Of a DNA stretch of 41,361 nucleotides, positions 14,301-29,800 are shown in pieces. The notes beneath the pieces were generated by a model. The model did no database searches. It was not told where the DNA came from and saw only the letters and a list, made by a program, of their open reading frames with translations. This DNA is from Anaerolineae bacterium (GTDB lineage: Bacteria > Chloroflexota > Anaerolineae > 4572-78 > J111). The stretch's first letter is position 1, and the number at the start of each line of letters is the position of its first letter. Where the stretch lies: the NCBI GenBank assembly GCA_020433785.1, contig JAGRCC010000400.1, positions 1,024 to 42,384 of the forward strand. The letters run 5' to 3'. Both the position numbers and the translations under genes were made by a program.

Positions 14301-14544
14301 ACAACCGCTGTTGAGCAAATGATAGGGGGATAGGCCCCGTGTACGAGGTAGGCTGAAGAGGCGGCTCAGTGGTTCGTTGAGCCTGACGTAAGAAACTTAA
14401 AAGCTCTGCTTTATGTTGCCCAATGGCTTGTCGTAAATCCGGGGTTAAAGCGCCTTTGGGTGCTTTGTAGCGCAAACGGTCACCGTCTAGCCAAAGTTTA
14501 ATGCCACGGGTATGGAGTTCTATCAAAAGTTGCTCGGTGATCAT
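8302..14544 (-). CDS. NRPS, one module with tandem C-CmodAA and epimerase (docking-C-CmodAA-A-PCP-E)
   Basis: This gene adds a threonine and probably dehydrates or epimerises it. Domains over 2080 aa: TubC-type N-terminal docking domain 1-55, C 70-505 (HHIASDG near 203), a second C-family domain 528-970 with HHIIADR near 668, A 995-1490, PCP 1505-1572 (Ser1540 in LGGDSI), E 1590-2030 (HHLVIDGVSW near 1727, VGWFTS, FNYLGQ). The pocket code D-F-W-N-I-G-M-V-H-K is the well-known threonine signature. The two C domains follow each other with no A or PCP between them, and the second resembles 'modified amino acid' condensation domains. The ATG overlaps the stop of the upstream gene as ATGA, with AAGGAG 4 nt upstream. 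The docking domain pairs in principle with the acidic tail of the upstream protein. Confidence 0.95.
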   Translation of the reverse strand: MITEQLLIELHTRGIKLWLDGDRLRYKAPKGALTPDLRQAIGQHKAELLSFLRQAQRTTEPPLQPTSYTGPIPLSFAQQRLWFINQLDGSSPAYNMPSAFQLSGQLEISLLHRSLIEIVRRHAILRTTYQAEDGQPHQVIASEVNVALPVVDLQALPANIQSVEIRRLARAEAQQPFDLTQDLMLRAKLLQASDDNFVLLLTMHHIASDGWSMRVLAQEMMTLYRAFSDNRSPTLPELPIQYADFALWQRGWLAGDRLKKQLAYWRTQLVGSPPLLRLPTDRPRPPVQTYRGANVDFTLPAGLTEPLQQLSQQSGTTLFTIVLAAFKILLARYSGQTDIVVGSSIANRTRLEFEPLIGFFVNTLVLRTDLADDPSFLELIKRLQRMTLEADAHQDLPFELLVDELQPERDPSHLPLFQVYFAWQNLPPVKVELPHLTIAPLAIDSGIAKFDLALFLEERGPGATVSENSGLQGTIEYNIDLFDRATVVTMIDRFQRLLTALGQELTTPVSHLAWGEAISLPPLEAGANVADRWPLSYHQERLWFIDQFETGAVYATHPTYHNIPLIMHLTGQLDPDAIEASLNAIIARHSALRTRIVSQKGHVMQVIRPQVRLKLERVDLATAKAVSPEAVMAQVLDEARRPLALDSDLLVRAVLFQTSQTDMTLLVVVHHIIADRDSIRLIAHEVAAVYRAQATAQKQQLPQPVLQYADYALWQRTLPAEALEPLWFYWRWQLRGRPAALQLPEDHPRPAVHTYTQASTTFHINPTLIEQLRNLNPTGQDNLFKVLLTGFMVLFYRYTRQNEIVVGTTVSGRETPAIEQIVGPLANLIVLRTHLNGNLTFKNFCERVSRVVDEALTHQALPFDKLVQQLALEPDMSRTALFDVLFQVERDDAPTLDFGNGTGRIIDTNLGYGKYDLNIMLHAQSKGWQGQVVYNADIYERPTIEQMMHHFVVILEAMADDSNQRLADVNLLSSQEQMDRFNRWNATQAHSPKDKTIPQLFAEQVQRTPHQMAVLDTTERLTYRQLDERANQVAHHLQAQGVTTETLVAVCLDRSATMIVALLAVLKAGGAYLPLDPSHPAERLRFMVEDAGINHLITTAALVDRIPVAIASTTLLDADGVEISRQPETAVSTTTTPDNLAYCLYTSGSTGQPKGVLIEHRQIVRLLVNDKLPFSFDQADVWTMFHAYTFDFSVWEMYGALLYGGKLVIVPAEVAKDPAQFVDLLIQHGVTVLNQTPTAFFNLMPKLLARSDVKLALRYIIFGGELLQPVQLRRWKTAYPEIKLINMYGITETTVHVTFKEIDHQETEAKVSNIGGPIPTTQLYILDERLQLLPIGVMGELCIAGEGLSRGYLNRAGLTATKFVPNPYQPQTTFYRSGDLGKRLPNGDVIYLGRIDDQVQIRGFRIELGEIRSQLLAHPAIAQVEVITRAKHDKAPTLVAYVVLTIDIDVTDLRAYLAQKLPHYMIPAAFVFMKTLPLTANGKVNRRALPEPDTARPKQKMPFVAPSTPEQKLLATIWADVLRRERVGIHDNFFELGGDSILSIQIVARSHQAGLHLTPKDIFQHQTIAGLASAVQVQETSDRIETSLSDGFVPLTPIQHRFFDQHLSEPHHFNQALRFEVSPATQPERLAHALQYLLRHHDALRLRFVENDSGLQQWYADPAEVLRSLPFITIDLSDLPAPLQRLAIDEGAMSLQTSLDLAQGPMVRLIFYYCGPNRPAVLWWISHHLVIDGVSWRVLVMDLITIYQQIEQGKEIHLPDKTTTFKGWADWLSNYARSEQLAAEIPYWSSLQSVAIQPLPVDHPADRSQNRVASAASLTCRLSVQETQALLQQAPAAYHTQVNDLLLAALLQTMVAWTGQSTLWLELEGHGRETSTNNLDLSRTVGWFTSVFPVLLQLEPPSAGQPTNAHLGTTIKSIKEQLRRVPHGGIGYGLLRYLTQIPELSTLPTAQISFNYLGQFDNLIDKTPAGSFILGLDQSGQAPARSPRQIRLYLLEIDGLIIDGQLSFIWTYSQNFHQTKTIQHLADTYIEALRTLIDHCLSPTAGGYTPSDFAKARVNQEQLDRLLNKLKIKSGDKRDG
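8319..8322 (-). promoter_or_regulatory. Ribosome binding site deciding the gene 4 start
   Basis: Minus-strand GGAG lies 9 nt upstream of the ATG at 8309. That ATG overlaps the preceding gene's GATGGATAA end by 8 nt. It supports the shorter start over the ATG at 8387. Confidence 0.6.
8425..11577 (-). other. Gene 3 Thr-activating A-PCP-E
   Basis: The pocket residues come from FDFSVW, VLNQTP, IIFGGE, INMYG and TTVH, giving the canonical Thr code D-F-W-N-I-G-M-V-H-K. The PCP carries the LGGDSI motif typical of carriers that feed an E domain. The E domain has HHLVIDGVSW and FNYLGQ and ends with the usual GGYTPSDF linker. The downstream C domain in gene 4 is of the post-epimerase type. D-Thr or D-allo-Thr, or dehydrobutyrine, is the expected output. 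Confidence 0.88.
11635..12963 (-). other. CmodAA-type condensation domain (candidate Thr dehydratase)
   Basis: The second of two adjacent C-family domains, about residues 528-970 of gene 3. It starts WPLSYHQERLWFIDQF. Its active-site motif is HHIIADRDS: both His and the Asp are kept, but the usual Gly after Asp is Arg. Known of the family: CmodAA domains next to Ser- or Thr-activating A domains are linked to dehydroalanine or dehydrobutyrine formation, as studied for AlbB of albopeptide and seen in bleomycin synthetase. Placement directly before a Thr A domain fits. Catalysis here is inference. Confidence 0.72.
14380..14544 (-). other. TubC-type N-terminal docking domain
   Basis: Residues 1-55 (LLIELHTRGIKLWLDGDRL, then APKGALTPDLRQAIG, then HKAELLSFLR) match the TubC_N docking domain of mixed NRPS/PKS lines. 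This domain binds the C-terminal peptide of the upstream subunit. The upstream protein (gene 2) ends in an acidic helix-like tail, LLEQEITLAEDEIEQGEL, a suitable partner. This fixes the order gene 2 to gene 3. Confidence 0.85.
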
Positions 14545-17500
14545 AGCTCTCCTTGTTCGATCTCATCTTCGGCCAGGGTGATCTCTTGTTCTAAAAGCTT
14601 TTGGGCCATAATCACTTGGTCAATGTGTTGCGCAATCTCTAGCAGAGTTGGTTTTTCAAATAGGCTGCGGAGTGGCAAATCAATCCGGTAGGTGTGACGC
14701 ACTCGAGCCATCAACTGGGTTGCCAAGAGCGAGTGACCGCCCAGATCAAAAAAGTTATCCTCAAGCCCCACCTGTTCCAGATTGAGAATTTCCTGCCAGA
14801 TGCCGGCCATGGTGTCTTCCGTGGCGGTTGTGGGAGCCTTATAAAGCGCACCTGATCGATATTCAGGTGCGGGTAAAGCCTTTCGATCCACTTTGCCGCT
14901 GGGTGTTAGTGGCAAAGTCTCCATCACCACAAAAGCAGCCGGGATCATATAATCCGGGAGCTTTTGTTTTAGAAACTCGCGCAGGTCGGTGATCAACGAG
15001 CGCTCATCGATCCCGGCCGGCGCCTCGGCAACGACATAAGCTACCAGCCGCCGATCATTACCATCTTCCTCGCGGGCCAATACAACGGCGCGTTGGATGG
15101 TCTGGTATTGCTCCAGCACCGCCTCGACCTCACCTAGCTCAACCCGCATACCGCGAATTTGCACCTGGTGATCCAGCCGGCCTAGATACTCAAGGATGGG
15201 GCGGCCAGTCTGGTCGATCCGGTAGCGTCCTAAATCTCCGGTTTTGTAGAGTCGCCCGGCCTTTTCCTCACCATTTGTCGATGATGAAGAAGCTGAAAAC
15301 GGGTTAGGAATAAATTTTTCAGCCGTTAGACCGGGCTGATAGAGATAGCCCCTGGCCATACTGAAACCGCCAATGTGGATCTCGCCCATAACATCAATCG
15401 GGCAGATTTGTCCGGCCTGATCCAAGATATAGACCGTGGCGTTGGCCAGCGGCTGCCCCATGGGAATGGATACCGTCTGCGCGTCCGGCTCACGATCGAT
15501 TAGATAATTGGTGACGTAGCTGACCGATTCGGTCATGCCATAGATGTTGGCGATTTTGGCCGCCTTAAACAAACGATACCATTCGCGGGCTACTGGAGCC
15601 GGCAACGCTTCCCCACCACTAAAGACCCATTTCAAGTGGGGTAAAGGGTTCGCCTGACCGCTGGCTCTGACGACCTGAAGGAAAGCAGCGATTAAGGGCG
15701 GAACAAACTGAGTGAGGCTGACTCGATGATCAGCCAGGGCCGCATACAGGCGATGCGGGTCTCGAACTGTGTCGGTATCAATGATGGCCATTTTAGCCCC
15801 CACCATCAAAGGCCAAAAATACTCGCAAACCGAGTCGGTGAAGCTGAGCGGCGTTTTTTGGGCGACAACATCGTCATGGGTTAGCGGGTAACAATCTTGT
15901 AACCAATGAAGCATGTTTAGAATGGCCTGATGCTCAACCATCACCCCTTTGGGGCGGCCGGTTGAGCCGGAGGTGTAAATGACATAAGCCAGATTATCGG
16001 GCTTGATCCGGCTTATTGGGTTATAGGTAGGCTGTTGGTTTAATTCGTCAGTGATGGCATCTAAATCGATGGTGGCCGGCTGTTGGCCGTTTTGGGCTTG
16101 AATTTGGCGATTGATGTTTGCCCAGGCATCGTCGGCTGCCGAAGATTGACGAATAACAAACGACAACTGCGCATCCGCCACCATAAAGGCCAGTCGTTCC
16201 TGCGGATAAGCCGGATCGAGCGGTAGATAAGCGCCCCCGGCTTTGAGAATCGCCAATAAGCTGATGGCGGTCTGCGGTGAGCGATCCAGATAAACGCCAA
16301 CCAACACCTCCGGCCCAACCCCCAGTGATTGCAGATAGTGGGCCAGGCGATTCGCCCGACGATTAACTGCCTGGTAGGTCAAGTGCTCCGTCTCAAAGAC
16401 AACAGCTACGGCCTCAGGTGTCCGTTCCGCCTGGGTTTCAATGCACTGATGCAGCAGTTGGTTTTGGGGATAGTCTGTCTGCGTGTCATTCCACTCAACC
16501 AAAAGTCGATGTCGATCCTGCTCACTCAACAGCGGTAACTGCCGCAGAGGATGGTGTAAATGCGTTACCATTCCCTCCAGCACAACTTGAAAATAGTCTG
16601 CAACGCGCGCAATGGTTTCAGGCTTAAAATAAGTGGTATTGTAGCTAAACCTGACGGTTACAGAGTTATTGTCGGGTATCACCAAGATCGTTAAGGGGTA
16701 GTTGGTTTGCTCAACCGTATGGGTATCTTTAATGTGAAACTGGTCGGATAGTTCGTCAGACATGAGATCGACCGGATAATTTTCAAAGATGAGAACCGTA
16801 TCAAACAATGATCGACCCCGTTGAATCTCGCTCCAGCCCTGAATATCGACGAGCGAACTATAGGCATAGCTCTCTCGTTCCCGTTGTTGAAGTTGTAGTT
16901 GCTGAAGCCAGCGCAACAGTGGCGTATTAGGTGCAATCTGAACGCGAGCCGGCAAGGTGTTGATAAACAAACCCACCATCGCCTCGACCTCGGTTAGCTC
17001 CGGCGGACGCCCCGACACCGTCACCCCGAACAGAACATCTGACGTGCCGCTATACCGGCTCAAAAGCAAAGCCCATGCTCCTTGAAAGAAGGTGTTAAGC
17101 GTGAGGTGATGTTTACGAGCCATTAGGGACAAATTTTGGCTAAGGCGAGTTGGTAAATAACTAACCTGCTCACGATATGAGGTAAGACCGGTCCCGGCGG
17201 CTCGATCAGTTGGGAAAGTCGTGGGACTAACAAAACCCCGGAGAGCCGAGCGCCAAAAGGTTTCGGCTTGAGCGTTGTCCTGCTGTTGTAGCCAGCCGAT
17301 ATAATCTCGATAGGGTCGAGCCGGGGGTAAAGAAACAGGTTGATTGAATAGAGCCGCTTGGTATAGCCGAAATAATTCCTTAAAAAGAAGCGGCATACTC
17401 CAACCATCCAAGAGCAACTGGTGCAGGCTCAATATAAAATGATAATGTTGTTCATCGAGCCGGATCAACGTGCAACGCATTAGGGGCGGTTGGTCTAACC

Positions 17501-20500
17501 GCAATCCCTGCTTGCGATCGGTTTGGAGGTAAGCTGTTAGCTGTTCCTGCTGGATTTGAGGGGCTAAGTTTCGCCAATCGTGTCTGCTCCACGGTAATTG
17601 AACCCCGCGCCGCACAAGTTGGACGGGCTGCGGCAATCCCTCCCAGACAAATGATGTTCGCAGGACGGGCTGTCGCTCCAGCAATGCTTGCCAGGCTACT
17701 TTAAAGGCATCTTCGTGAAGCCGACCTTCAAGACTAAAGCTTAATTGTTGGAAATAAACATCAGCTTCGGGATCGTAGAAACTATGAAAGAGCATGCCCT
17801 GCTGCAACGGCGAGAGGGCATACATATCGTCCACTTGTTGGCTCAATATACCGGCAAGTCGGTCAACGTCCTGCTGAGCCAACAAAGCAAAGGGAAAGTC
17901 AGAAGGGGTGTAGCCCCCGGCCTGCGGCGACCGGCAGTGTTCGATCAACGCGCTGAGGTTGTTCATATACTGGTGCGCCAAATTTTCTATGGTGGCCGCT
18001 CGATGAATATTGCGACTGTAACGCCAGGTTACTTGCAGTTGCTCGTCAACGATCATGCTATTGATTTCCAACACATATCCACGACGCCCTAATGGACTCC
18101 GGCTCGGCCCAGCCTCGATCTGCGTCGGCTTGAATAACCCTGCTTGAGATATCGTCGGGTCAGTTTGACCCAAATAATTAAAAAGGATTTCCGCCGAGGG
18201 CAAAGCGACCAAGCCAGCTCGAATTGTTTTATCTTCATTTAAGTAGCGTAAGACCCCGTAGCCCACCCCTCGATTGGGGATGGCTCGTATCTGTTCTTTG
18301 ATCGATTTGATGACTTTTCCCGGCTGGTTCTGTTCATCTGGTTCAAGGTGTAACACTATCGGAAAGATTGAGGTAAACCAACCTACTGTGCGGGACAGAT
18401 CGATCCCTTCGAATAACTCCTCCCGACCGTGTCCTTCTAAATCAATCAAGACCGTTGGCTGTCCCTGCCAATCGCTCACCGTTTGCCACAGCGCCGCCAA
18501 CAGCAGATCATTGATTTGGGTGTGGTAAACTGAGGGCACAACTTGCAAGAGCATTCGAGTTTGATCTTTGTCTAACACGGTTGAGATGGTAGCGGCGGAG
18601 GCGACGGTGTTGTCGGCCTCTGCGGCTGCTAAATCTGTAGGCAAGGTCGTCACTTTTGCCCAAGGTTGCTCTAGCCAATAGTTTAATTCGGCCTTGAGTG
18701 TTTTCGATTGCGCATAGACACTTAACCGTTCGGCCCATTGCTGAAATGAACTCGACGGTGGGGGCAAGATGACGTCCGCCTGCTGCGTCAGTTGCTGATA
18801 AGCTTGCTGTAAATCTTCCAAAAGAATACGCCAGGATACGCCGTCTACAATGAGGTGATGGATAATCACCAATACCTGATCCGGTGCGGTATCCCCATGT
18901 CGAAATAGGGCGATCCGCAGGAGCGGTCCATCGCTGAGATGTAAGCTGGCTTGTAGTTGACCTGCCGTGGCCTGGAACATCGTCGTCCGTTGGGAGGGGG
19001 TAAGGCTTGCTAAATCCACAATCACGACGGGGAATGATGGGCCGGAATGGCTATATGACTGTTGCCAGCCGTCCTGTTTGAGAAAACGAAGTCGAAACGC
19101 AGCATGATGGCTAAATGTGTAGGATAGTGCTTGAATCAGTAACTTCGGGACTACATCTTTCGCGATGTCAAGTACCACCGCTTGATTGTAGTGGTGTGCC
19201 TCGGGAAGCGTTTGTTCAAAGAACCACTGCTGAATGGGAGTTAGAGGGACTGAACCACGCATCGATCCGGCCCAAGGCTGAGGACCGGTTGTCATTTTAG
19301 CCACCTGCGCTAACCGGGCAATGGTCTGATGTTCAAAAATTTCTTTGACCGAGACATCGATACCTAACTGTTTCGCCTGAGCCACAATCTGAATGCTCAT
19401 GATCGAATCGCCACCTAGCCTGAAGTAGTTGTCGTGGATACTGACCTGTTCTTTACGCAGTACCTTGGTCCAAACATCGGCCAAGGCCTGTTCCGTGGGG
19501 GTACGTGGCGGGACAATATCTCTGGTTTGTTCGGTTTGAAGTTGCTGTAAGGCTTCGCGATCAACTTTACCATTGGGCGTTAAGGGCAGGTGGTCCAACT
19601 GAATAAAATTCACCGGCAGCATATAGTCCGGCAGAAAATCGGCCAGGTATTGTCGGAGGTGAGCATTTTCTAGGCTAGTTGGCGCGCTATAGTAGGCCAC
19701 CAATGGGTTGGCACTCGCAGCCGCATCAGGCCGACGATACCCAATTTTATCTAATATCTTGGATACGTTTGCTTCATTGATATTATCATCCAGCTCCTCA
19801 ATCGCTGCCTGACGATGTTTATGCCCTAGCCGCACATCCCAACTGTACGGCATCGCGTAGTTATGATACCCCCGTTCTTTCTGATGAACATAGATACCTA
19901 CCTCATTAATCAGACAATTGGTTGAACGTCCGGTATCCTGTGGTCTAATCCAGGGAGCTTGCTCGTCCAGATAAGTCAGTATTTCATCCAAAGTTACAGC
20001 GGTATAACGATAAAAATCGACAAATTGAATATCGTCAAAGAGGGCATCGTTTTGAAATATGCCGACATCCAGATGTTGACTGACCGCATCATTGATCCGA
20101 TGATAGGCTTTTCTGGCTGCCAGAATAGTTTGATCAACTTCGTCTGCATCAAACACTTTCTGGTTGAACAGCTCCATCAACCGGGTTTCAAAAATTTGCC
20201 CTCGCGATAAGCCGGTGACGATGACCTTGATGCCATGCCGGCGAGCGAGATGAACGCCCTGGGTATAAATCACCTTAAAACAGCCGTTACAGACGTTGCT
20301 AAAGCGCTGCAAGCTATCAACAAAGATGGTATTCATCGCCGGGGTTGAACCAAAAACGTGATCGACCTTTAGTTCGGTGACGATGCGGTTAATGTTGGCT
20401 TTGGCGCCATCGGAGATATAGCCGTTGTCAAAGCTAAAGGCCAACACGTTTAGGCCCATCTCGACCAATTGGTACAAAACATAAGAGCTATCTTTGCCGC

Positions 20501-23500
20501 CGCTCAACAACATCAAGCAGTCATACGGGCCGGTACGCCTGGATTGAGCCTGGTCAAAAATCAACTGTAAATCATCCATGCTCTTAAAGTAACTTTGAGC
20601 CTGCTCTCGGTACTGTTCAAATTCAAGGCAATAATTGCACACCTTGTTCTCATTGAGGTGGGTTTTAGGGTAATTGGCGGGTAGGCCACAACGGACACAT
20701 TGCTCAGACGTTGGGTGGGCGGGGAGATCGGGGTGGCTGAGATCAACGCTACAATTTTCAATATAAGGATGATTGGCTAATACCGCTTCGATTTCACCCA
20801 GCTCGATCCGAAAACCACGCAATTTAACTTGCCGGTCGATTCGGCCTAAAAATTCGATGATGGGTTGAGCGGCCTCATCAAGCCGGTAACGGGCCAAATC
20901 ACCACTTTTATACAGTCGCCCTCCGATCTGGCCTTCATCACTGGCGAATGGGTTGGGAATAAACTTTTCCGCAGTTAAGCCCGGTCGATTGAGATAACCG
21001 CGTCCCACTTGAAGGCCACCGATATAAAGTTCGCCGGGAACGCCGACCGGCACGGGGCGCAAATGTCGATCCAAAATGTAAAGCTTCGTATTCGCAATGG
21101 GTCGGCCAATGGGGATATCATCGGCCAAATCGGTTCTAGCTGATATTTCGTAGACACAGCAGCCAACGACGGTCTCCGTTGGGCCGTACTCGTTGAAGAC
21201 CCGGGTCTGGGGCGCTTCGTCCAGCCATCGCGTTAAATCAGTTCCGTGCAGAGCCTCTCCTCCCAGGATTAGGGTTTGGGCAACCTGGGTCAGGTTGGAC
21301 ATCTGGTAATGAAGCAGCTTCAGGTGAGCCGGTGTTAGCTTTAACAGATCATAGCTGACCTGGTCGGTCAGATTTTCGACCAACGACTGACCGGTCGGAT
21401 CTTCAAGGATCAAAACCAAACGTTGGCCCGACAACAACGATAAAAAAAGTGAGGTTACGGTCAGGTCGAAGCTGAGAGATGAGTGCAGCGGTACCTTGCC
21501 CCCTTCGCTGCCTTGATCGGTGAGATAGGTCTTTTTGGCCCAGGTTAGGTAATTGACCAACCCACGATGGGGAATCATCGACCCTTTGGGGAGGCCGGTC
21601 GAACCCGACGTATAGATGACATAAGCCAGGTTGTCAGGCATCGTTCGGTTTGGGGGATTATGCGAGGGATATTGATGCAAAAGATGGGCAATGGTATCAA
21701 CCGCAATAACATCTCCCTCTCTATTTTTGAGGAGATGATGTTGATTTTGGTTTGCTAAAGTCGATTGGCTCAAGATTTGTGACAACTGAGCATCTTGAAT
21801 CATAAAGGCCAATCGATCTTGCGGGTAAGTGGGGTCTAAAGGAAGATAAGCCCCTCCGGCTTTAACAATCGCCAATAGACTGACGATCATCTCCGGAGAG
21901 CGTTCAAAATAAAGGCCAACTAAGGTGTCGGGACCAACACCCAAAGATTGCAGGTAGTGGGCTAACCGGTTGGCCTGCGTATTCAATTGGCGAAACGTTA
22001 GTTGTCGGTCTCCATCAACAATCGCGATAGCATCGGGGGTGCGTTCGACTTGAGCCTCGAAAAGTTGGGGCAAACAGGGATCGGTCGGGGAAGGACTGTG
22101 GGTGTCGTTCCACCTAACTAAAAGCTGCTGTCGTTCAGCCTGGCTCAACAGCGATAAGTGACCAAGCGTTTGCTGAGGAGCCTGAACCATACGTTCCAAC
22201 AATCGCCGTAGATGACTAACCAATCGCTGGATCGTAGCCGGTGTAAATCGCCCCGTTTCATAACCAACGTGGATCATCAATTCTGCACCCGGCACAACCC
22301 ACACGGTTAAAAGGTAGTTGGTTTGTTCAAGCGTTCGGACAGATTTTAGGTGAAGATCACTGTTCATCTGCAACATACTGACATCAAGCGGGTAATTCTC
22401 GAAAAGTAACAGGGTGTTAAAGAGCGGCACGCCCTGCGGGAGGTCACTCCATCTCTGAATATCGGTCAAGGCTACGTAACTGTACTGATCGCGCTCTTGT
22501 TGGTCACTTTGTATTTGTTCCAACCACGGTAGCAATACCTTTTTCTCGGCGATCTGAACCCGAACCGGTAAGGTATTGATAAAGAGGCCAACCATCTCCT
22601 CGACACCATTCAAGGTGGCCGGACGCCCCGAGACCGTAGCCCCAAAAAGAACGTCATCTTGATCGCTATACCGGCTCAACAGCAAAGCCCAAGCCCCTTG
22701 AAAAAGCGTATTCAATGTTAAGTTGTGGTCACGGGCAAAACGTTGTAAAGCGGTGGTCGTGGTTGCGGAAAAATGGAATGTCTCTTTGACATATTGGGTT
22801 GTCTTGAGAGCCGAGCGGCGATCGACCCCCACCGGCGTGGCCGACGTAAAACCCTGTAATGTTTTACGCCAAAAGCTTTCGGCCTGAGCCAGATCTTGTT
22901 GTTGTAACCAAGTGATGTAATTCTGATAGGGCCAAGGCACTGATAACGAGACCGGGATATGTTGAACGGTGGCTTTATAAATTACAAAAAGCTCTTTGAA
23001 AAGAGTAGACATCGACCAGCCATCCAGCAGCAGATGATGATGGCTCCAGATAAAATGGAACGCGTCATAAGCGGTCTGGATCAAGGTAAATCGCATCAAG
23101 GGAGCTTGCGTTAGCACAAACCCCTGAGCGCGATCTGCTTCCAGAAACGTCGCGAGTTGCGCCCTTTGCTCGGCATGAGACAAATCACGCCAATCGTGAT
23201 GAGTCCAGTGCAGATCAACCTGCTCATAAACCACCTGAACCGGGGTTTCCTGTCCCTCCCACAGAAACGCCGTCCGCAGCACAGCCTGGCGAGCTACAAG
23301 CTGTTCCCAGGCTTGCTGAAAGGCAGCGACATCCAGAACGCCGGTCAATGTGGCGCATAATTGTTCTATATAAACGCCTGTGTCAGAGGAAACTAAGGTT
23401 TCAAACAGAATACCCTGTTGTAAAGGAGACAAGGAATACCTATCGGCAACATTTTCCAACGGCGAAGGTTGCGTAGAAGACAACGGTGATGCGCCGGTCT

Positions 23501-26500
23501 TCCGAGCTTGTTCGGATTGAACCGAGGCTTGCGGGGTAACAACAGCAACCAGTTCAGCGATGGTTCTATATTGGAACAGATCTCGGGGCGAAAAGTGTAA
23601 ACCGGCTTGGGCGGCTCGGGCCACCACCTGAATAGAAATGATAGAGTCACCGCCCAGTTCAAAAAAGTTGTCATTAATACCAATGCGGTCAACGCCCAAA
23701 ACCGCCTGCCAAATATCGACCAAATGCTTTTCAACAGCGGTGCTCGGCGGCACGTAATGGTCCGACCGTTGCTTAGGGGCAGGTAAGGCTTGCCGATCCA
23801 CTTTGCCGTTGGGGGTCAGAGGTAAAGCATCCAAGATCATAAAGGTGGTCGGAATCATCGGATCGGGTAACTTCTTCCGCAGGAATTGCTGCAACTCTGT
23901 GTACAGCAATCGTTCGTTGATAGGCAGTCCGCCGGAATTGTTGTCGATCGACTCAAGGTTGGCTGATGATCGCTCCTTGAGCACCATATAAGCAACCAGC
24001 CGCTTACGACCAAGGTGATCTTCATGGATTGCCGCCACCGCCTTAGAGACCCCGGGATGTTGGCTGAGAACGCTCTCGATTTCACCTAACTCGATCCGGT
24101 AGCCTCGTATTTTTACTTGGTGGTCACGCCGCCCGATAAATTCGATGACGAGGCGGCCAGTGCTATCAAAGATATAGCGGGCTAAATCGCCGGTTTTGTA
24201 CAGGCGTGTTCCCGCTGCTGAAGATGTAGGCGAGGCAAATGGATGCGGGATAAATCTCTCAGCGGTTAAGCCGGGTTGATCTAAATACCCTCTGGCAAGC
24301 TGCACCCCTCCCACATATAACTCCCCCATGACCCCGGTGGAAACGGGCTGTAACTGCTCATCTAAGATATACAGCTGCATATTGGCAACGGGCCGACCAA
24401 TCGGCACGGCTTCACGGCTGGTAAAATCGCCGGATGCCTCATACACACAGCAGCCAACAACGGTCTCGGTTGGGCCGTATTCATTCACAAGCCTGAGGTT
24501 GGGATAGTGTTGATACCAGTCGGCGAGTTGGTGACTAAACAAAGCTTCCCCGCCGATGATAAAAGCACGTGTTTTTTGGCCCGGATACCCTAATTGCCCC
24601 AAAGCCTGGAGATGAGCCGGGGTGAGTTTGACCAGGGAAAAGTGGCTGTCCCCTTGTAAAGCCTGGGCCAAGGCGTCGATCTCCTCGGCCTCGGGCAGCA
24701 ACCTTACCGGTTGACCTAGCAGCAAGGGGGAAAATAAACTTGTTATCGTGGCATCAAAGCCAAGGGCCGTATTAACGGGAGCGCCGTCGCCTGCCTCGGC
24801 ATAGTAGGCATCGATACACCAAGCGAGATAATTGCTTAATCCTCGATGCGGGATCAATGTTCCTTTGGGTTGGCCGGTTGATCCGGAGGTGTAGATGACA
24901 TAGGCGAGATTGTCAGGCTTTATTTGGCTTATCGGATTATGCGTAGACTGCCGCCCAAGTTCGTTTGCTATGGCCTCGACATCAATGAGGGTTGCTTGCC
25001 CCTCTGCTAAAAATGCGTGGGACGAGTCTGGGCTTTCGAGAACCGATCCTTCCCCATTCGCTATTGTTGATAACGACGAATAACTGATCACATATGACAA
25101 TTGTGCATCTGAAACCATAAAGGCCAATCGATCCGCTGGATAAGTCGTATCGAGCGGAACATACGCCCCCCCGGCTTTGAGGATACCCAATAATCCCACA
25201 ACCATCTCTAGCGAGCGTTCCAGGTGAAGGCCAACCAATGTTTCCGATCCAATGCCAAGAGAGCGTAAATAGTGGGCCAATTGGTTGGCTCGCCGGTTGA
25301 GCTCCTGATAGGTAAGTTGTTGCCCTTCATAAACAACAGCTATGGCTTGCGGCGTGCGTTCGACCTGCTGCTCAAACAACTGGGGGAAACAGTGATCTAC
25401 GGGATAGTTCGTTTGGGTATCATTAAATTCAACCAGCAAACGGGTGTGCTCTTGGGCATCCATCATCGATAGATCACCCAACGGCGTGTCCGGTTGGGCT
25501 GCAACGGCTGCCAATAGGGCGCAAAATTGACGCGCCATGATCCGAATACTATCGCTTAAAAAGAGATGAGCATTATACGCAAGGCGTAAGGTCAGGGTTT
25601 CACCTTGCTCGATAAGGGTCAACTGAATGTTAAAGCGTTCGGTCAGGGTTGCTTGTTCGTCAATCGATAAGGAAATTCCTTCGACTACCTCTGGTAAAGG
25701 AATTTGCTCAAAGTTAAAATTATAGGGAAAGAAGCTGCGCTCGATATTAAACTCGTTTGCCAGAACCTCCCAATCAAAATATTCCTGCCAACCGTAGTTT
25801 TCGTCTAACGTTTCCGCTACTGTGGTCGCCAGGGTATCGAACGCAAGCTGCGCATCGAGACGAGTGTAAACCGGCACATATTTGCTCAAAGGGCCAGGTG
25901 TGGTTTGTAATTCTTCGTAATTTCGACCATCACAGCCTACACCAACGACAATTTCTGTCTGACCGGAGAGACGCCAAAGCTGGATTTGCCAGCAAGCCAG
26001 CACTATAGCGGCCAGAGGGGAGTCAAGCTGCTGGGCCATTCTCCGTAATGGCTGAACAATTTTTGGATCGATCGGAATCGTCAGGCTCTGAGGCTCGAAC
26101 GGCAACGCTGAACTGGTCTTCATCCCAAACTTTTCAAATGAAACCCGCACGGATAGGGCGTTTGACCATCGTTGCTTGTACCAATAGCTTCGACCTTCAG
26201 CCGTCTCTTCCGACTCCAGTAGCTCGTTAAGCCAAGCCGCGACGTCGGTATATTGCAGCATCTCTTCATCTAACTCACCGGTTTGCTCGGTTTCTCTCAA
26301 GGTCGCTGCATAGGCCCGGCCCAGTTCGCTAACAATCGTCTGTAGGGTAGAGATATCGGCACAGAGCGCCGGTAAACTCAACAAAAGACGATACTCATTG
26401 GTGGCTAAGGTGAACAATACTACCCTCACCAAGGGCCCTTTTTCAAGATCAAACGCCTGCGCTTTCGTTTCATCAAACACGTTCCGCAGTTGCGCCTGCT

Positions 26501-26786
26501 GTTGCCGCTCGGTAAGATGGGTCAAATCGATCGTGTTCATTGATGGCTGAACATCGTCGGCTATAAGCTGAAGGGGGATGGTCGTTCCCGGTAGACATTG
26601 AAATAGCGTCCGAAAAATCTCGTAGGTCTCGATAACTTGGTATAGAGCCGTCATTAAGGCCTGCTTGTCAACGGTGCCGGACAGACGGATCATCGCTTGG
26701 CACGGGAAAGAAACGCTGTTTATATCGTTTTGTTGTGATAACCAAATTCGTCTCTGTTGGGGAGAGAGTCGAAAACCCTGCATCAT
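14541..26786 (-). CDS. NRPS, three modules, with a PP-loop ATPase inserted in the second A domain
   Basis: This gene adds residues 2-4. Domains over 4081 aa: degenerate C 1-445; A1 460-1000, PCP1 1010-1080 (Ser1048); C2 1108-1540 (HHLLLDG near 1248), A2 from 1560 to about 2400 including an insert at about 2015-2355, PCP2 2423-2493 (Ser2461), E 2510-2945; C3 2983-3410 (HQLLLDG, His3122-Gln3123), A3 3440-3970, PCP3 3980-4050 (Ser4019); acidic tail to 4081. Pocket codes by alignment: A1 D-A-T-K-I-G-E-V-G-K and A2 D-L-T-K-I-G-E-V-G-K, both asparagine-type; A3 T-D-C-Q-F-G-I-S-Y-K, lacking Asp235. GGAG lies 9 nt before the first of two adjacent ATGs, so the first (26786) is chosen. It starts 74 nt after the stop of gene 1. 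The reading frame is open throughout, including the insert. Confidence 0.95.
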   Translation of the reverse strand: MMQGFRLSPQQRRIWLSQQNDINSVSFPCQAMIRLSGTVDKQALMTALYQVIETYEIFRTLFQCLPGTTIPLQLIADDVQPSMNTIDLTHLTERQQQAQLRNVFDETKAQAFDLEKGPLVRVVLFTLATNEYRLLLSLPALCADISTLQTIVSELGRAYAATLRETEQTGELDEEMLQYTDVAAWLNELLESEETAEGRSYWYKQRWSNALSVRVSFEKFGMKTSSALPFEPQSLTIPIDPKIVQPLRRMAQQLDSPLAAIVLACWQIQLWRLSGQTEIVVGVGCDGRNYEELQTTPGPLSKYVPVYTRLDAQLAFDTLATTVAETLDENYGWQEYFDWEVLANEFNIERSFFPYNFNFEQIPLPEVVEGISLSIDEQATLTERFNIQLTLIEQGETLTLRLAYNAHLFLSDSIRIMARQFCALLAAVAAQPDTPLGDLSMMDAQEHTRLLVEFNDTQTNYPVDHCFPQLFEQQVERTPQAIAVVYEGQQLTYQELNRRANQLAHYLRSLGIGSETLVGLHLERSLEMVVGLLGILKAGGAYVPLDTTYPADRLAFMVSDAQLSYVISYSSLSTIANGEGSVLESPDSSHAFLAEGQATLIDVEAIANELGRQSTHNPISQIKPDNLAYVIYTSGSTGQPKGTLIPHRGLSNYLAWCIDAYYAEAGDGAPVNTALGFDATITSLFSPLLLGQPVRLLPEAEEIDALAQALQGDSHFSLVKLTPAHLQALGQLGYPGQKTRAFIIGGEALFSHQLADWYQHYPNLRLVNEYGPTETVVGCCVYEASGDFTSREAVPIGRPVANMQLYILDEQLQPVSTGVMGELYVGGVQLARGYLDQPGLTAERFIPHPFASPTSSAAGTRLYKTGDLARYIFDSTGRLVIEFIGRRDHQVKIRGYRIELGEIESVLSQHPGVSKAVAAIHEDHLGRKRLVAYMVLKERSSANLESIDNNSGGLPINERLLYTELQQFLRKKLPDPMIPTTFMILDALPLTPNGKVDRQALPAPKQRSDHYVPPSTAVEKHLVDIWQAVLGVDRIGINDNFFELGGDSIISIQVVARAAQAGLHFSPRDLFQYRTIAELVAVVTPQASVQSEQARKTGASPLSSTQPSPLENVADRYSLSPLQQGILFETLVSSDTGVYIEQLCATLTGVLDVAAFQQAWEQLVARQAVLRTAFLWEGQETPVQVVYEQVDLHWTHHDWRDLSHAEQRAQLATFLEADRAQGFVLTQAPLMRFTLIQTAYDAFHFIWSHHHLLLDGWSMSTLFKELFVIYKATVQHIPVSLSVPWPYQNYITWLQQQDLAQAESFWRKTLQGFTSATPVGVDRRSALKTTQYVKETFHFSATTTTALQRFARDHNLTLNTLFQGAWALLLSRYSDQDDVLFGATVSGRPATLNGVEEMVGLFINTLPVRVQIAEKKVLLPWLEQIQSDQQERDQYSYVALTDIQRWSDLPQGVPLFNTLLLFENYPLDVSMLQMNSDLHLKSVRTLEQTNYLLTVWVVPGAELMIHVGYETGRFTPATIQRLVSHLRRLLERMVQAPQQTLGHLSLLSQAERQQLLVRWNDTHSPSPTDPCLPQLFEAQVERTPDAIAIVDGDRQLTFRQLNTQANRLAHYLQSLGVGPDTLVGLYFERSPEMIVSLLAIVKAGGAYLPLDPTYPQDRLAFMIQDAQLSQILSQSTLANQNQHHLLKNREGDVIAVDTIAHLLHQYPSHNPPNRTMPDNLAYVIYTSGSTGLPKGSMIPHRGLVNYLTWAKKTYLTDQGSEGGKVPLHSSLSFDLTVTSLFLSLLSGQRLVLILEDPTGQSLVENLTDQVSYDLLKLTPAHLKLLHYQMSNLTQVAQTLILGGEALHGTDLTRWLDEAPQTRVFNEYGPTETVVGCCVYEISARTDLADDIPIGRPIANTKLYILDRHLRPVPVGVPGELYIGGLQVGRGYLNRPGLTAEKFIPNPFASDEGQIGGRLYKSGDLARYRLDEAAQPIIEFLGRIDRQVKLRGFRIELGEIEAVLANHPYIENCSVDLSHPDLPAHPTSEQCVRCGLPANYPKTHLNENKVCNYCLEFEQYREQAQSYFKSMDDLQLIFDQAQSRRTGPYDCLMLLSGGKDSSYVLYQLVEMGLNVLAFSFDNGYISDGAKANINRIVTELKVDHVFGSTPAMNTIFVDSLQRFSNVCNGCFKVIYTQGVHLARRHGIKVIVTGLSRGQIFETRLMELFNQKVFDADEVDQTILAARKAYHRINDAVSQHLDVGIFQNDALFDDIQFVDFYRYTAVTLDEILTYLDEQAPWIRPQDTGRSTNCLINEVGIYVHQKERGYHNYAMPYSWDVRLGHKHRQAAIEELDDNINEANVSKILDKIGYRRPDAAASANPLVAYYSAPTSLENAHLRQYLADFLPDYMLPVNFIQLDHLPLTPNGKVDREALQQLQTEQTRDIVPPRTPTEQALADVWTKVLRKEQVSIHDNYFRLGGDSIMSIQIVAQAKQLGIDVSVKEIFEHQTIARLAQVAKMTTGPQPWAGSMRGSVPLTPIQQWFFEQTLPEAHHYNQAVVLDIAKDVVPKLLIQALSYTFSHHAAFRLRFLKQDGWQQSYSHSGPSFPVVIVDLASLTPSQRTTMFQATAGQLQASLHLSDGPLLRIALFRHGDTAPDQVLVIIHHLIVDGVSWRILLEDLQQAYQQLTQQADVILPPPSSSFQQWAERLSVYAQSKTLKAELNYWLEQPWAKVTTLPTDLAAAEADNTVASAATISTVLDKDQTRMLLQVVPSVYHTQINDLLLAALWQTVSDWQGQPTVLIDLEGHGREELFEGIDLSRTVGWFTSIFPIVLHLEPDEQNQPGKVIKSIKEQIRAIPNRGVGYGVLRYLNEDKTIRAGLVALPSAEILFNYLGQTDPTISQAGLFKPTQIEAGPSRSPLGRRGYVLEINSMIVDEQLQVTWRYSRNIHRAATIENLAHQYMNNLSALIEHCRSPQAGGYTPSDFPFALLAQQDVDRLAGILSQQVDDMYALSPLQQGMLFHSFYDPEADVYFQQLSFSLEGRLHEDAFKVAWQALLERQPVLRTSFVWEGLPQPVQLVRRGVQLPWSRHDWRNLAPQIQQEQLTAYLQTDRKQGLRLDQPPLMRCTLIRLDEQHYHFILSLHQLLLDGWSMPLLFKELFRLYQAALFNQPVSLPPARPYRDYIGWLQQQDNAQAETFWRSALRGFVSPTTFPTDRAAGTGLTSYREQVSYLPTRLSQNLSLMARKHHLTLNTFFQGAWALLLSRYSGTSDVLFGVTVSGRPPELTEVEAMVGLFINTLPARVQIAPNTPLLRWLQQLQLQQRERESYAYSSLVDIQGWSEIQRGRSLFDTVLIFENYPVDLMSDELSDQFHIKDTHTVEQTNYPLTILVIPDNNSVTVRFSYNTTYFKPETIARVADYFQVVLEGMVTHLHHPLRQLPLLSEQDRHRLLVEWNDTQTDYPQNQLLHQCIETQAERTPEAVAVVFETEHLTYQAVNRRANRLAHYLQSLGVGPEVLVGVYLDRSPQTAISLLAILKAGGAYLPLDPAYPQERLAFMVADAQLSFVIRQSSAADDAWANINRQIQAQNGQQPATIDLDAITDELNQQPTYNPISRIKPDNLAYVIYTSGSTGRPKGVMVEHQAILNMLHWLQDCYPLTHDDVVAQKTPLSFTDSVCEYFWPLMVGAKMAIIDTDTVRDPHRLYAALADHRVSLTQFVPPLIAAFLQVVRASGQANPLPHLKWVFSGGEALPAPVAREWYRLFKAAKIANIYGMTESVSYVTNYLIDREPDAQTVSIPMGQPLANATVYILDQAGQICPIDVMGEIHIGGFSMARGYLYQPGLTAEKFIPNPFSASSSSTNGEEKAGRLYKTGDLGRYRIDQTGRPILEYLGRLDHQVQIRGMRVELGEVEAVLEQYQTIQRAVVLAREEDGNDRRLVAYVVAEAPAGIDERSLITDLREFLKQKLPDYMIPAAFVVMETLPLTPSGKVDRKALPAPEYRSGALYKAPTTATEDTMAGIWQEILNLEQVGLEDNFFDLGGHSLLATQLMARVRHTYRIDLPLRSLFEKPTLLEIAQHIDQVIMAQKLLEQEITLAEDEIEQGEL
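14549..14554 (-). promoter_or_regulatory. Ribosome binding site of gene 3
   Basis: Minus-strand AAGGAG sits 4 nt before the ATG at 14544, inside the end of gene 2. The ATGA overlap of start and stop indicates coupled translation. Confidence 0.6.
14607..17864 (-). other. Gene 2 module 3 (C-A-PCP), residue X4, possible beta-amino acid
   Basis: The C domain is of the post-epimerase type (YALSPLQQGMLFHSF), but its motif is HQLLLDG (CAC CAG codons), with Gln at the second, catalytic His. In the A domain the segment is SFTDSVCEYF, so Asp235 is Thr and Asp is at 236. The full code is T-D-C-Q-F-G-I-S-Y-K. An Asp shifted to 236 is known from beta-amino-acid-activating domains such as the beta-Ala code V-D-W-V-I-S-L-A-D-K, so a beta-amino acid is inferred. 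The PCP (GGHSL) has no E domain after it. Confidence 0.78.
17907..23489 (-). other. Gene 2 module 2: C-A[PP-loop]-PCP-E, D-Asn-type
   Basis: The C domain has intact HHLLLDG. The A domain runs normally through YTSGSTGLPKG, NEYGPTETVVG and RIELGEIEAVL (A8). It is then interrupted and resumes at LVAYYS, FLPDYMLP (A9) and LTPNGKVDREAL (A10, Lys present). The code D-L-T-K-I-G-E-V-G-K predicts Asn. The E domain has HHLIVDGVSW, VGWFTS and FNYLGQ intact, so the residue should be delivered in D form to the next C domain. Confidence 0.88.
19722..20744 (-). other. PP-loop ATP-pyrophosphatase domain inserted between A8 and A9
   Basis: About 340 residues (about 2015-2355 of gene 2) that are not adenylation domain. 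Seen in order: CVRC (Cys2030, 2033) and CNYC (Cys2050, 2053), a zinc-ribbon-like head; LSGGKDSSYVLYQL with the PP-loop at 2095-2101, followed by a LAFSFDNGY strand; VCNGC (Cys2166, 2169); GIKVIVTGLSRGQIFETRL; and a C-terminal part with PWIRPQDTGRSTNCLIN (Cys2291) and YSWDVRLGHKHRQAA. PP-loop enzymes (N-acetyl sugar amidotransferases, tRNA thiolases, asparagine synthetase, GMP synthetase) adenylate a carbonyl oxygen and replace it with N or S. CxxC plus a third Cys after the PP-loop recalls the 4Fe-4S ligands of TtcA/TtuA. The head and general layout also recall WbpG-type amidotransferases. The exact reaction is unknown. Candidates are amidine or thioamide formation on the Asn residue or Asp amidation. 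Confidence 0.85.
23532..25424 (-). other. Gene 2 module 1 A-PCP, Asn-type pocket
   Basis: The pocket residues come from FDATIT, VKLTPAH, IIGGE, NEYG and TVVG, giving D-A-T-K-I-G-E-V-G-K. This is one position away from the A2 code and close to the published Asn code D-L-T-K-L-G-E-V-G-K. Asn is therefore predicted, with Asp as the alternative. The PCP motif LGGDSI is of the E-associated kind, yet no E domain follows. The next domain is a C of the YSLSPLQQG type. Confidence 0.83.
25452..26786 (-). other. Degenerate N-terminal condensation-like domain
   Basis: Residues 1-445 of gene 2 have C-domain fold landmarks (FRLSPQQRRIWLSQQ at the start, a WRLSGQTEIVVG latch-region strand). However, the HHxxxDG motif reads PALCADI (about 139-145). 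Both His are lost and only the Asp remains. The preceding protein already ends with a complete C domain carrying HHIAADA. I infer this domain is non-catalytic for peptide bonds and may help dock or gate. It could also belong to a C subfamily with its own chemistry. Confidence 0.8.
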
Positions 26787-26860: not shown

Positions 26861-29800
26861 TTATTTCTTGACAATGGTCTTGAGTTTACGCAGCCCAATC
26901 GCTTTAAGGGCGTTCTTATGGCGTTGATTTTGGAGTTGGTCCATTTGGGCCAACGCGCTATGCAAAAACTCTAATCGAATATCCGGTTGATTGACGACCT
27001 TATGGAGCACCTGTTCATACTGTTCAACCAACATTGCAATGGTTGTCTCCCTAAATAAATGGGCGTCATATTGAATATACCCCTGTAAACCCTGTTTCGA
27101 CTCGGCCAACGTTACCAATAAATCAAACTTAGCAATCTCAACATCAACCTCCATCAGGGATAAGGTGAGATCAGGAAGTGAGAAGGTTGCCTCTTTGAGG
27201 TTGTGGAAGATCAGTCCCGCCTGAAATAACGGAGTTCGACTTAAGTCCTGGTCATGCTCCAAATGGCCGACCAAAACATCAAACGGTAACTCTTGATGAG
27301 TGTAGGCTTCCAGCGTGACGTCACGTACCCGTTGAAGCGTTTCCTGAAATTCAAGATTGCCTCCGATGTCTGTTCGCAGCACAAGTTGATTGACAAAGAA
27401 GCCCACTAATTCTTCCAAATCCGGGTGATGTCGGTTGGCTACCCCTGTCCCTACAACAATGTCGTTTTGTTGGCTGTGATAACTTAACAAGATTTTGAAG
27501 GCCGTCAAAAGAACCATAAAAAGCGTACTGTCATTTTGACGCCCCAGCGTGTTGAGGGCGGTTGCCAGCGATGCGGGCCACGTAAAACGCTTTATCGCCC
27601 CGTAAGCAGCTCGAACTGTGGGGCGGGGATAATCGGTGGGCAAATTTAAACGCGGGGCATGACGTAATTTTTGTTTCCAATAGCTTAAGTGCGTGGCTAA
27701 TTTTTCCTGATCGAACTGTTGACGTTGCCAATAGGCGTAATCGGCATATTGAAGCTTTGGCGTGGGCAAGGGTGAGGGTTTGCCCTGTGCATAAGCTTCG
27801 TATAAAGTGGTAATTTCCCGAATCAACACCCCAATCGACCAGGCATCAGCGGCAATGTGATGGATGGTTACAAGCAAGACATATTCATTATGGTCCAAGA
27901 AAAGTAAATTTGCTCTTAGCATCAAATCGTGACTTAAATCGAAAGGTCGCCGGGCTTCTGCTTCAGCCAATCGCTGGAGTTCAGAGGTTTGAACGTGACT
28001 CGGTACATGCGCCAAGTCAATCAAAGGCAGCTTTAGCTCCGCTTTGGGATAGATAATTTGTCTGGCTTCACCGCCTTCCGCCTGATAGGTGGTACGCAGA
28101 ATCTCGTGTCGTTGCACGATTTCATTGAGACTACGAGCTAGGGCGGCGATGTTAAGTGAACCGCTCAATTTGAGCATTGCCGGCATATTATAGGTGGCCT
28201 GAGGACCTTCCAATTGATCCACCACCCACAGACGTTGTTGGGCAAAGGACAATGGCAAACGCTGATCACGCGGGATCGGTTTGATGGGGGATAAGGTGAT
28301 TTTCTTAGCTTGTGTCACCGCTTCAGCGAGAGTGGCTAAGGTTGGATATTCAAATAAGCTCCGCAGCGGCAGATCGACGCGGCAGATTTGGCGTATTCTG
28401 GCGATAACCCGAGTCGCCAGCAGCGAATGCCCGCCGATCTCAAAAAAGTTATCGTGACGCCCTACCCGATCTAACTCCAAAACCTCTTGCCAAATTGACG
28501 CCAAAATCTCTTCGGTGGGTGTGCGGGGGGGAGCGTAAGTGGTATTTGGCTCATCGGTTGGGATAGGTAGCGCACGGCGATCAAGTTTGCCGTTTGCCGT
28601 CAACGGTAAAGTCGATAAGAAGATGAACCGGCTGGGGATCATCGCGCCGGGTAGCCATTGGGCTAAATAACGCCGAAGCTCATTCGCATCGAGCGGTTGC
28701 GCCTGGTTAGGAACTATATAGGCGATCAGTTCGAGGTTTTGCTCAGTTTTTTGGACACTCACCGCACTGCTCTTGACCGCAGCATGCCGGTCTAATACTG
28801 TTTTGATTTCAGCCGGTTCGATACGGACGCCCCGAATTTTGATTTGGTCATCCAGCCGGCCTAAAATTTCGAGCACAACTTGGCCCGTTCTATCGAGTCG
28901 GTAGCGTCCCAGGTCGCCGCTGTGATAAATTTGGTCGGCGGCATCTTGGTGAAACGGATTGGGGGCAAAACCGGTTTGGGCAGCGTTAAAATAGCCCAAC
29001 GTGCGAAATGGCGTTCTCACGATAATTTCGCCTGGTTCGCTTATGCCGCACAATCGCCCATTTTTCATCACGAAGAGCTGGGTTTCCGGCAGCGGACGAC
29101 CGACGGGTTGGGTGCCGGGTAAGGCCGGTTTAGGAACGTGATAGTAGCACTTGGCCATAGTTGTTTCGGTTGGCCCGTAGAGGTTAACAATCTCGCCGCT
29201 GCGGGGAAAGGCCGTTCGCCACTGCTGAACCAGAGTCTCGGTCAAGGGTTCACCGGCAAAGAAGGCCCAGCGCAAGGTTGATAAAGTTGCGTGCGGAGGA
29301 CGATTGGCCAGCCAGTTTTGGGCCTGGGTAGGCACGGTATGAAGTATCGTGATGTGTTGTTGGTCTAACCACGTTAGCAACTGCTCTGGGGCGAGTAGCT
29401 CGATCTCGTCCGGTAGATACAAAGTCGCACCACTGGTGAGCGGCAAAAAGATGTCGCGCAAGAAAGGATCAAAGGCGGGCGCCATGAGCTGGGCAATCCG
29501 ATCGGTAGGCTCCACGGCAAAGGTCTCCCGCTGCCAACGGATGAAGTGTGACAAGCCTTTGTGCTGACCTAAGACGCCTTTGGGGATGCCGGTTGTACCG
29601 GAGGTAAAGAAGATGTAGGCCGTATCATCTCCGGTTAGCTTCGGGCAATCAAATTCTTCTGTGGCCTGTTCGGCCTTTGCTCGACCCGTGCCGGCATCGA
29701 CATCGATGATTTGGATTGATTGTTTCGACCACGGAGAAGGGAGCGGGTGCAAATTCAACAAAATTTTGACCTTCGCTTCTTGGAGCATCATGTGTTGGCG

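Follow-up and report, generated by a model that had tools for sequence, protein, structure and literature searches.

An AMDH-type PP-loop domain inside an asparagine-type adenylation domain of an Anaerolineae peptide synthetase, with a possible iron-sulfur route to a nitrile

Among domains inserted into adenylation (A) domains of nonribosomal peptide synthetases (NRPSs), the one closest to the domain analyzed here is the aminomutase/amide dehydratase (AMDH) domain, whose biochemistry was established on CysH of cystobactamid (PMC7966384). As a free-standing A-T module, CysH depends on the shuttle protein CysB and meets the hydroxylase CysJ. It loads Asn, refuses L-Asp, and converts carrier-bound Asn into β-cyanoalanine or isoasparagine; bound Asn was shifted by -18 Da, no shift was seen with CysH lacking the AMDH domain of about 38 kDa, and its deletion removed both products (PMC7966384). 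Every CysH assay contained 1 mM ATP, which serves the A domain and may serve the AMDH domain as well. The protein was dark brown and a metal was suspected; the AMDH mechanism was left open in 2021, and a radical iron-sulfur route was put aside for lack of a CxxCxxxC motif (PMC7966384). A second example is AlbIV of albicidin, a stand-alone Asn-activating module with a 342-aa insertion bearing SGGKD, for which phosphorylation and β-cyanoalanine were proposed (PMC12283262, PMC8949500); this insertion and the CysH domain share 69% identity (PMC7966384). In addition, CtaC, the thioamide synthetase of closthioamide, acts on carrier-bound substrates and introduces sulfur into backbone amides; it requires a [4Fe-4S] cluster, loses its activity in air, and still binds iron when its cysteines are mutated (PMC6772006).

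Architecture and kinship of the insert

The window, that is, the whole analyzed stretch of 41,361 nucleotides from an Anaerolineae bacterium, contains a single open frame encoding a large NRPS (Table 1). Module 2 is part of a longer assembly line: a condensation domain precedes it, and a TIGR01720 domain, which we take to be of the epimerization type, follows it. Approximately 337 foreign residues separate A8 from A9, their predicted fold is confident, and the A fold is resumed at A9/A10 in the structure model of the module 2 A domain. The order of A8, PP-loop insert, A9 and A10 within one frame, and the placement of the insert in an Asn-type A domain, were as the original prediction had described them, and its view that the insert acts on the Asn side-chain amide is probably right. 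Its statement that no PP-loop enzyme had been described at this site was mistaken, as shown by CysH (PMC7966384) and AlbIV (PMC12283262, PMC8949500).

Table 1. Features of the NRPS gene and of its second module in the window.
Feature	Position (nt)	Strand	Basis
NRPS gene, 4081 aa	14541..26786	minus	Open frame, start to stop; Pfam Condensation x4, AMP-binding x3, PP-binding x3
Second A domain core, residues 1597-2004, code DLTKIGEVG, Asn type	20775..21998	minus	TIGR01733 stretch 1597-2014 and code
AMDH-type PP-loop insert in the A8-A9 loop, residues ~2022-2358	19713..20723	minus	Motifs and homology; edges by eye
CxxC...CxxC (C2030, C2033, C2050, C2053), zinc-finger-like	20628..20699	minus	4/4 Cys in 172/174 rows spanning all positions, listed homologues
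PP-loop SGGKDS, S2095-S2100, ATP site	20487..20504	minus	Motif and column conservation
CNGC, C2166 and C2169, cysteines 1 and 2 of predicted [4Fe-4S] triad	20280..20291	minus	239/239 rows; align with CtaC C154, C157
C2291, triad cysteine 3	19914..19916	minus	239/239 rows; aligns with CtaC C284
A9 and A10 (FLPDYMLP ... NGKVDREAL), remainder of A domain	19548..19637	minus	Motifs; predicted structure
Module 2 carrier domain, LGGDS	19305..19511	minus	Limits by eye; Pfam PP-binding, three stretches in protein
Epimerization-type domain downstream of module 2	17832..19229	minus	TIGR01720, 158.7 bits against cut-off 74.2

The comparison with CysH was made on CysH-like modules from two cystobactamid-type clusters, in place of CysH of C. 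velatus. The insert is 52% identical to the domain of the first (323 aa, E=3e-121) and 51% identical to that of the second over 331 aa; all seven cysteines are shared, and so, by eye, is the A code. Both modules adjoin a TauD gene, a two-module NRPS and an O-methyltransferase-like gene, and one of the two also a chorismate-binding gene. In the tree, the window insert and the CysH-like domains fell into one clade of 29 rows (support 100/99), whereas CtaC clustered with L099 and L107 (100/100); the outer rows sit on long end branches, where false joins are possible. Judged by its sequence, the insert is thus of the AMDH kind and homologous to the domain of CysH-like modules, although 52% identity does not fix the choice between the two AMDH reactions. 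The window shares with CysH an Asn-type A domain carrying an inserted PP-loop domain with SGGKD, and with AlbIV, as published descriptions have it, a PP-loop insertion in an Asn-activating module; unlike these two stand-alone modules, the window module works in line. The enzymes inserted in methyltransferase-interrupted A domains (e.g., 5wmm) are unrelated to it.

Substrate code and conserved residues

Among the matches listed, DLTK[IV]GE[VI]G was read in all 119 insert-bearing A domains. Of the 128 A domains in these proteins that carry no insert, one has it; this exception, in P0020, was checked for an insert and has none. One genome scan returned at least 313 relatives of the domain across many phyla, of which 80 loci were examined. 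The A code was readable at 75 of the 80: DLTK.GEV was found at 70 of the 72 loci read by script, the remaining two differing by one letter, and three further loci missed by the pattern and read by hand matched as well. Ten rows missed by the motif pattern (L087-L089, L091, L092, L094, L096, L101-L103) were read separately or placed in the tree. Since DLTKIGEVGK has been called compatible with β-cyanoalanine (PMC12283262), the strict pairing of this code with the insert makes β-cyanoalanine the likely product here.

The conservation alignment comprised 239 of 245 proteins, the homologues being the 120 listed of 338 and the 120 listed of 372; outside it stayed five other window proteins, which have no insert, and P0214, whose aligned stretch was under the length limit. 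Five of the six PP-loop columns were unvaried in 231 of 231 rows, and G2096 was kept in 230. Among these listed matches the CxxC...C triad, C-terminal to the PP-loop, was present in every aligned row. At locus L060, the PP-loop and triad are present and the finger was not picked up by the pattern. Three Clostridia inserts of the same clade (L115-L117) have lost the Asp and Ser of the PP-loop (SGGRGA, SGGKGS) and retained the triad, and their host A domains carry the code DPWMxGTIN, which is not of the Asn type. This contrast ties the ATP site to Asn and is silent on the role of a cluster.

A possible iron-sulfur site and the reaction of the insert

The profile of the insert family matched CtaC with a probability of 98.7% (E=1.9e-16, 307 columns), triad aligned on triad. 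CtaC shares with the insert the PP-loop, the CxxC...C triad, a finger-like CxxC...CxxC and a carrier-bound substrate; it is, however, a stand-alone protein outside the clade of A-domain inserts. We consider the chances about even that AMDH domains are iron-sulfur enzymes, with a [4Fe-4S] cluster on the invariant triad beside the PP-loop, which would be the CtaC architecture set in an A domain and dehydrating an Asn amide. The brown colour of CysH is a hint and no more. On the other side, "anaerobic" and "glovebox" have no occurrences in the available text on CysH (PMC7966384), and dehydration of Asn with no mention of anaerobic handling counts against an essential oxygen-labile cluster. The iron binding retained by the CtaC cysteine mutants (PMC6772006) is a further point against. 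The presence of the triad is not proof of a cluster or of thiolation, because L119, which scores above the WbuX cut-off, has it too; the equation of triad with thiolation was dropped for the same reason. The [4Fe-4S] sulfur transferases TtcA, TtuA, NcsA and LarE act on tRNA or cofactor substrates and resemble the insert by fold only. Searches of the open-licence literature, mostly at the title and abstract level, found no paper joining AMDH with an iron-sulfur cluster. The kind of domain is known, and the metal site, with the mechanistic lead it offers, seems to be the new part.

Our analysis suggested that the insert likely dehydrates the side-chain amide of carrier-bound Asn to β-cyanoalanine, using ATP bound at its PP-loop together with a [4Fe-4S] cluster predicted at C2166, C2169 and C2291. 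The A2 core would adenylate L-Asn, as its code indicates, and load it onto the module 2 carrier. A second ATP would then bind at the PP-loop domain and activate the oxygen of the side-chain amide; by analogy with the PP-loop superfamily, the intermediate is probably an AMP ester. Loss of AMP and a proton would give the nitrile, and the iron left open in a cluster held by three cysteines may bind the amide or nitrile nitrogen. The CxxC...CxxC finger presumably binds a structural zinc, and the D form could arise through the epimerization-type domain that follows.

Other reactions have to be weighed against dehydration. The insert might act mainly as an aminomutase that shifts the amino group of Asn (perhaps in hydroxylated form) on the carrier and so yields isoasparagine, a product that the CysH AMDH domain forms in vivo (PMC7966384). 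We regard this as unlikely: prior hydroxylation by CysJ favours the isoasparagine route, none of the window frames was named as a TauD-type gene, and no CysJ-like protein was matched at E<=1e-5 in 782 frames of 80 related loci (of at least 313), although 36 of these loci are shorter than 20 kb and the contig ends about 1 kb past the window. Moreover, no isoasparagine-containing albicidin is known (PMC7966384). The original prediction had offered amidine, thioamide and Asp-to-Asn chemistry, for which the PP-loop is the sole support here, joined in the case of the thioamide by the CtaC-type triad; the documented chemistry is dehydration of the amide to a nitrile or aminomutation, neither of them on that list. 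A CtaC-like synthetase whose carrier-bound product is thioasparagine or a backbone thioamide would agree with the triad, the PP-loop, the profile match and the carrier-bound substrates of CtaC, and was at one point the leading idea, given up on account of the AMDH precedent. It is now rather improbable, since the clade of A-domain inserts holds CysH-like domains and not CtaC, the mass change in CysH is not the +16 Da of thiolation (PMC7966384), and full text searches of the open-licence literature did not find "thioasparagine".

Still less probable is an amidotransferase turning Asn into an amidine, as N-acetyl sugar amidotransferases (WbuX/TIGR03573; 8wex) do with acetamido sugars. The sugar amidotransferase 8wex is the best solved-structure match of the insert, but all three cysteines of the triad are missing from it. 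The PP-loop family search did return TIGR03573 (E=1.5e-33), yet at 116.6 bits, below the family cut-off of 203.2; this score tells little about function, because CtaC, a thioamide synthetase, reaches 123.9 there. Conversion of Asp to Asn was rejected: the code here has GE, versus GH in the Asp code (PMC3207962), and CysH does not accept Asp (PMC7966384). QueC was not among the families listed by the fold searches, an absence that is no exclusion.

Judging by how widely the domain occurs, peptides with a nitrile or isoasparagine may be commoner than the two known compound families suggest. The AMDH reaction is known and its mechanism was open in 2021 (PMC7966384); the triad, the profile link to CtaC and the confident fold provide a concrete candidate mechanism. 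If it is true, these synthetases would hold an iron-sulfur-dependent amide-to-nitrile domain within an assembly line, the dark brown colour of CysH would be accounted for, and the aminomutase reaction may use the same cluster.

The interrupted adenylation domain and its precedent

The second adenylation domain (A2) of the window NRPS is interrupted in the A8-A9 interval, as read from the translated frame. The insert carries the motifs CxxC...CxxC, the PP-loop SGGKDS, CNGC and one later conserved cysteine. It is followed by A9 and A10, then by a carrier, a domain of epimerization type (TIGR01720) and a third module. Modelled alone, the insert gave a confident fold (pLDDT 91.8, pTM 0.86); modelled together with its A domain, the result was fair to good (pLDDT 87.1, pTM 0.67), and the A fold superposed on solved A domains on both flanks of the insert. 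Translation, motifs and modelled A fold bore out a PP-loop insert between A8 and A9 in an uninterrupted frame. Among PP-loop families, matches were obtained to QueC (Pfam, weak) and to the N-acetyl sugar amidotransferase family WbuX (NCBIfam TIGR03573), the latter scoring under the family cut-off.

Features of the window around the interrupted A domain
Feature	Position	Strand	Description
NRPS gene	14541-26786	minus	one stop-free frame, 4081 aa
PP-loop insert	residues about 2022-2358	minus	between A8 and A9
Upstream gene	26861-39490		fatty-acyl-AMP ligase-like start, then PKS and NRPS modules (by eye)
P450	39640-40863	other strand	

The statement that no PP-loop enzyme had been described at this site did not hold. 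In the albicidin module AlbIV, an insertion of 342 aa that probably belongs to the adenosine nucleotide hydrolase superfamily was suggested to convert Asn to beta-cyanoalanine (PMC12283262; PMC8949500), Asn being the favoured substrate (PMC8949500). Its homologue in the cystobactamid module CysH was named AMDH (aminomutase/amide dehydratase); it removes water from Asn held on the carrier (+114 to +96), its deletion abolishes both the nitrile and the isoasparagine products, and its homologues are described as numerous, every one in an A domain with predicted Asn specificity (PMC7966384). The general finding had thus been published by 2021.

Spread, specificity code and CysH-like modules

The insert is real and widespread. 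The search for other NRPSs with the same insertion returned 338 matches among NRPS-sized proteins, and 372 were found among short proteins (the best 120 of each examined). A genome-contig scan yielded at least 313 relatives, whose titles mention Bacteroidota, cyanobacteria, Chloroflexi-type Anaerolineae, Actinomycetes, Acidobacteria, Gammaproteobacteria and others; 80 of these served for the neighbour and code counts.

All 119 codes read from A domains directly before an insert were DLTKIGEVG (58), DLTKVGEVG (58) or DLTKIGEIG (3), and the same code occurred in only one of 128 insert-free A domains of the same proteins, a domain of protein P0020 confirmed to lack the insert. Among genome loci, 70 of 72 showed DLTK.GEV, while a single letter was changed in the other two (DMTK, DLSK); a further three loci, missed by the first pattern, also matched. 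The insert-free A1 of the window NRPS reads DATKIGEVG. We take the DLTK-type code to specify Asn. This reading draws on the same code in CysH-like modules and on the preference of CysH for Asn (PMC7966384).

Of 195 genomes searched from the phylum to which the myxobacterial relative G062 belongs, 4 had a match at E<=1e-30. In two of the four, a ~1000-aa module adjoins a TauD gene, a two-module NRPS and an O-methyltransferase-like gene (assigned by eye in the second locus), with a chorismate-binding gene also beside one of them; these neighbours fit cystobactamid clusters. The window insert is 52% and 51% identical to the two CysH-like inserts; by eye, all seven cysteines are shared, as are the A motifs. 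In a tree of 49 rows, A-domain inserts, including the CysH-like ones, formed one clade (29 rows, 100/99), whereas the closthioamide thioamide synthetase CtaC and the WbuX kind fell outside it.

Gene neighbourhoods and likely product

Four genes adjoining the NRPS-PKS genes, scanned or read, were a thioesterase, a P450 and NRPS/PKS proteins (the latter by eye); neither a TauD-type hydroxylase nor a CysQ-like methyltransferase was seen among them, within a contig of 42384 bases beyond which partners are possible. Likewise, neither the CysJ-like (TauD-type hydroxylase) nor the O-methyltransferase protein of locus L143 had a match at E<=1e-5 in 782 frames of 80 related loci, only 44 of which reach 20 kb. 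Since no hydroxylase was seen and CysH dehydration mainly occurs without it (PMC7966384), beta-cyanoalanine is the likeliest unit made here, perhaps afterwards in its D form. A minority of AMDH modules are directly followed by a domain of epimerization type (7 of 120 long proteins, the best 120 of 338; 13 of 78 loci). The start of the upstream gene, together with the P450, suggests that the window product may be a lipopeptide.

A recurrent cluster is common to many AMDH modules among L001-L080 (e.g., L066, L023, L016, L062). The 80 loci include a solo A-domain gene in 46, a HupE/UreJ_2 membrane protein in 40, an acyl-CoA dehydrogenase in 38, an ornithine-cyclodeaminase-like gene in 19 and a free carrier in 18. 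One dehydrogenase scanned was PigA/RedW-like (prolyl-carrier dehydrogenase) and a TonB receptor in L066 matched siderophore receptors, both under cut-offs. The cluster looks like a pyrrole-type starter, and its product is perhaps a metallophore. At 11 Flavobacteria-type loci (L042-L080; e.g., L073:11498-11938), a His-rich protein of ~150 aa directly follows the AMDH module; the one scanned had no Pfam match, and the protein is possibly metal-binding. Five Microvirga and Bradyrhizobium loci (L029, L034, L040, L047, L057) carry a module of ~990 aa made up of A domain, insert and carrier. It lacks a condensation domain, stands alone in the manner of CysH and AlbIV, and adjoins genes for a phosphopantetheinyl transferase and for an acyl-CoA dehydrogenase.

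A predicted metal site

Three cysteines, C2166, C2169 and C2291 (the CxxC...C triad), are jointly invariant in 239 of 239 aligned rows among the relatives listed. CtaC, whose ATP-site residues include D77 and S78, relies on C154, C157 and C284 and requires an Fe-S cluster (PMC6772006). L110 (genome G021) was taken as CtaC because all five residues are exactly in place when numbered from its MIECEVK start and its neighbours, by eye, are consistent with the closthioamide cluster. It matched the window insert at E=3.8e-12 with 22% identity, and the insert family profile matched it over 307 columns (probability 98.7%, E=1.9e-16), triad aligned on triad. We conclude that a [4Fe-4S] cluster is probably present in AMDH domains; any chemical role of the cluster is inferred. 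Counting against a cluster, CtaC fails in air (PMC6772006), whereas the text of PMC7966384 names no anaerobic handling of CysH. The same source describes CysH protein as dark brown and the CxxCxxxC motif as absent, its authors leaving the mechanism open; the spacing of the CtaC-type triad differs from CxxCxxxC, so a search for that motif would miss it.

Three Clostridia NRPSs of ~2150 aa (L115, L116, L117) have an AMDH-like insert with the triad kept and the PP-loop ruined (SGGRGA, SGGKGS), in A domains of a different code, DPWMxGTIN, that carry a further extra stretch early on, B12-binding-like by eye. The triad is missing from 8wex, a sugar amidotransferase of solved structure, and from its close relative L118. 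Both L118, very close to 8wex, and L119, in which the triad is present, score above the TIGR03573 cut-off, so this family name may cover two chemistries.
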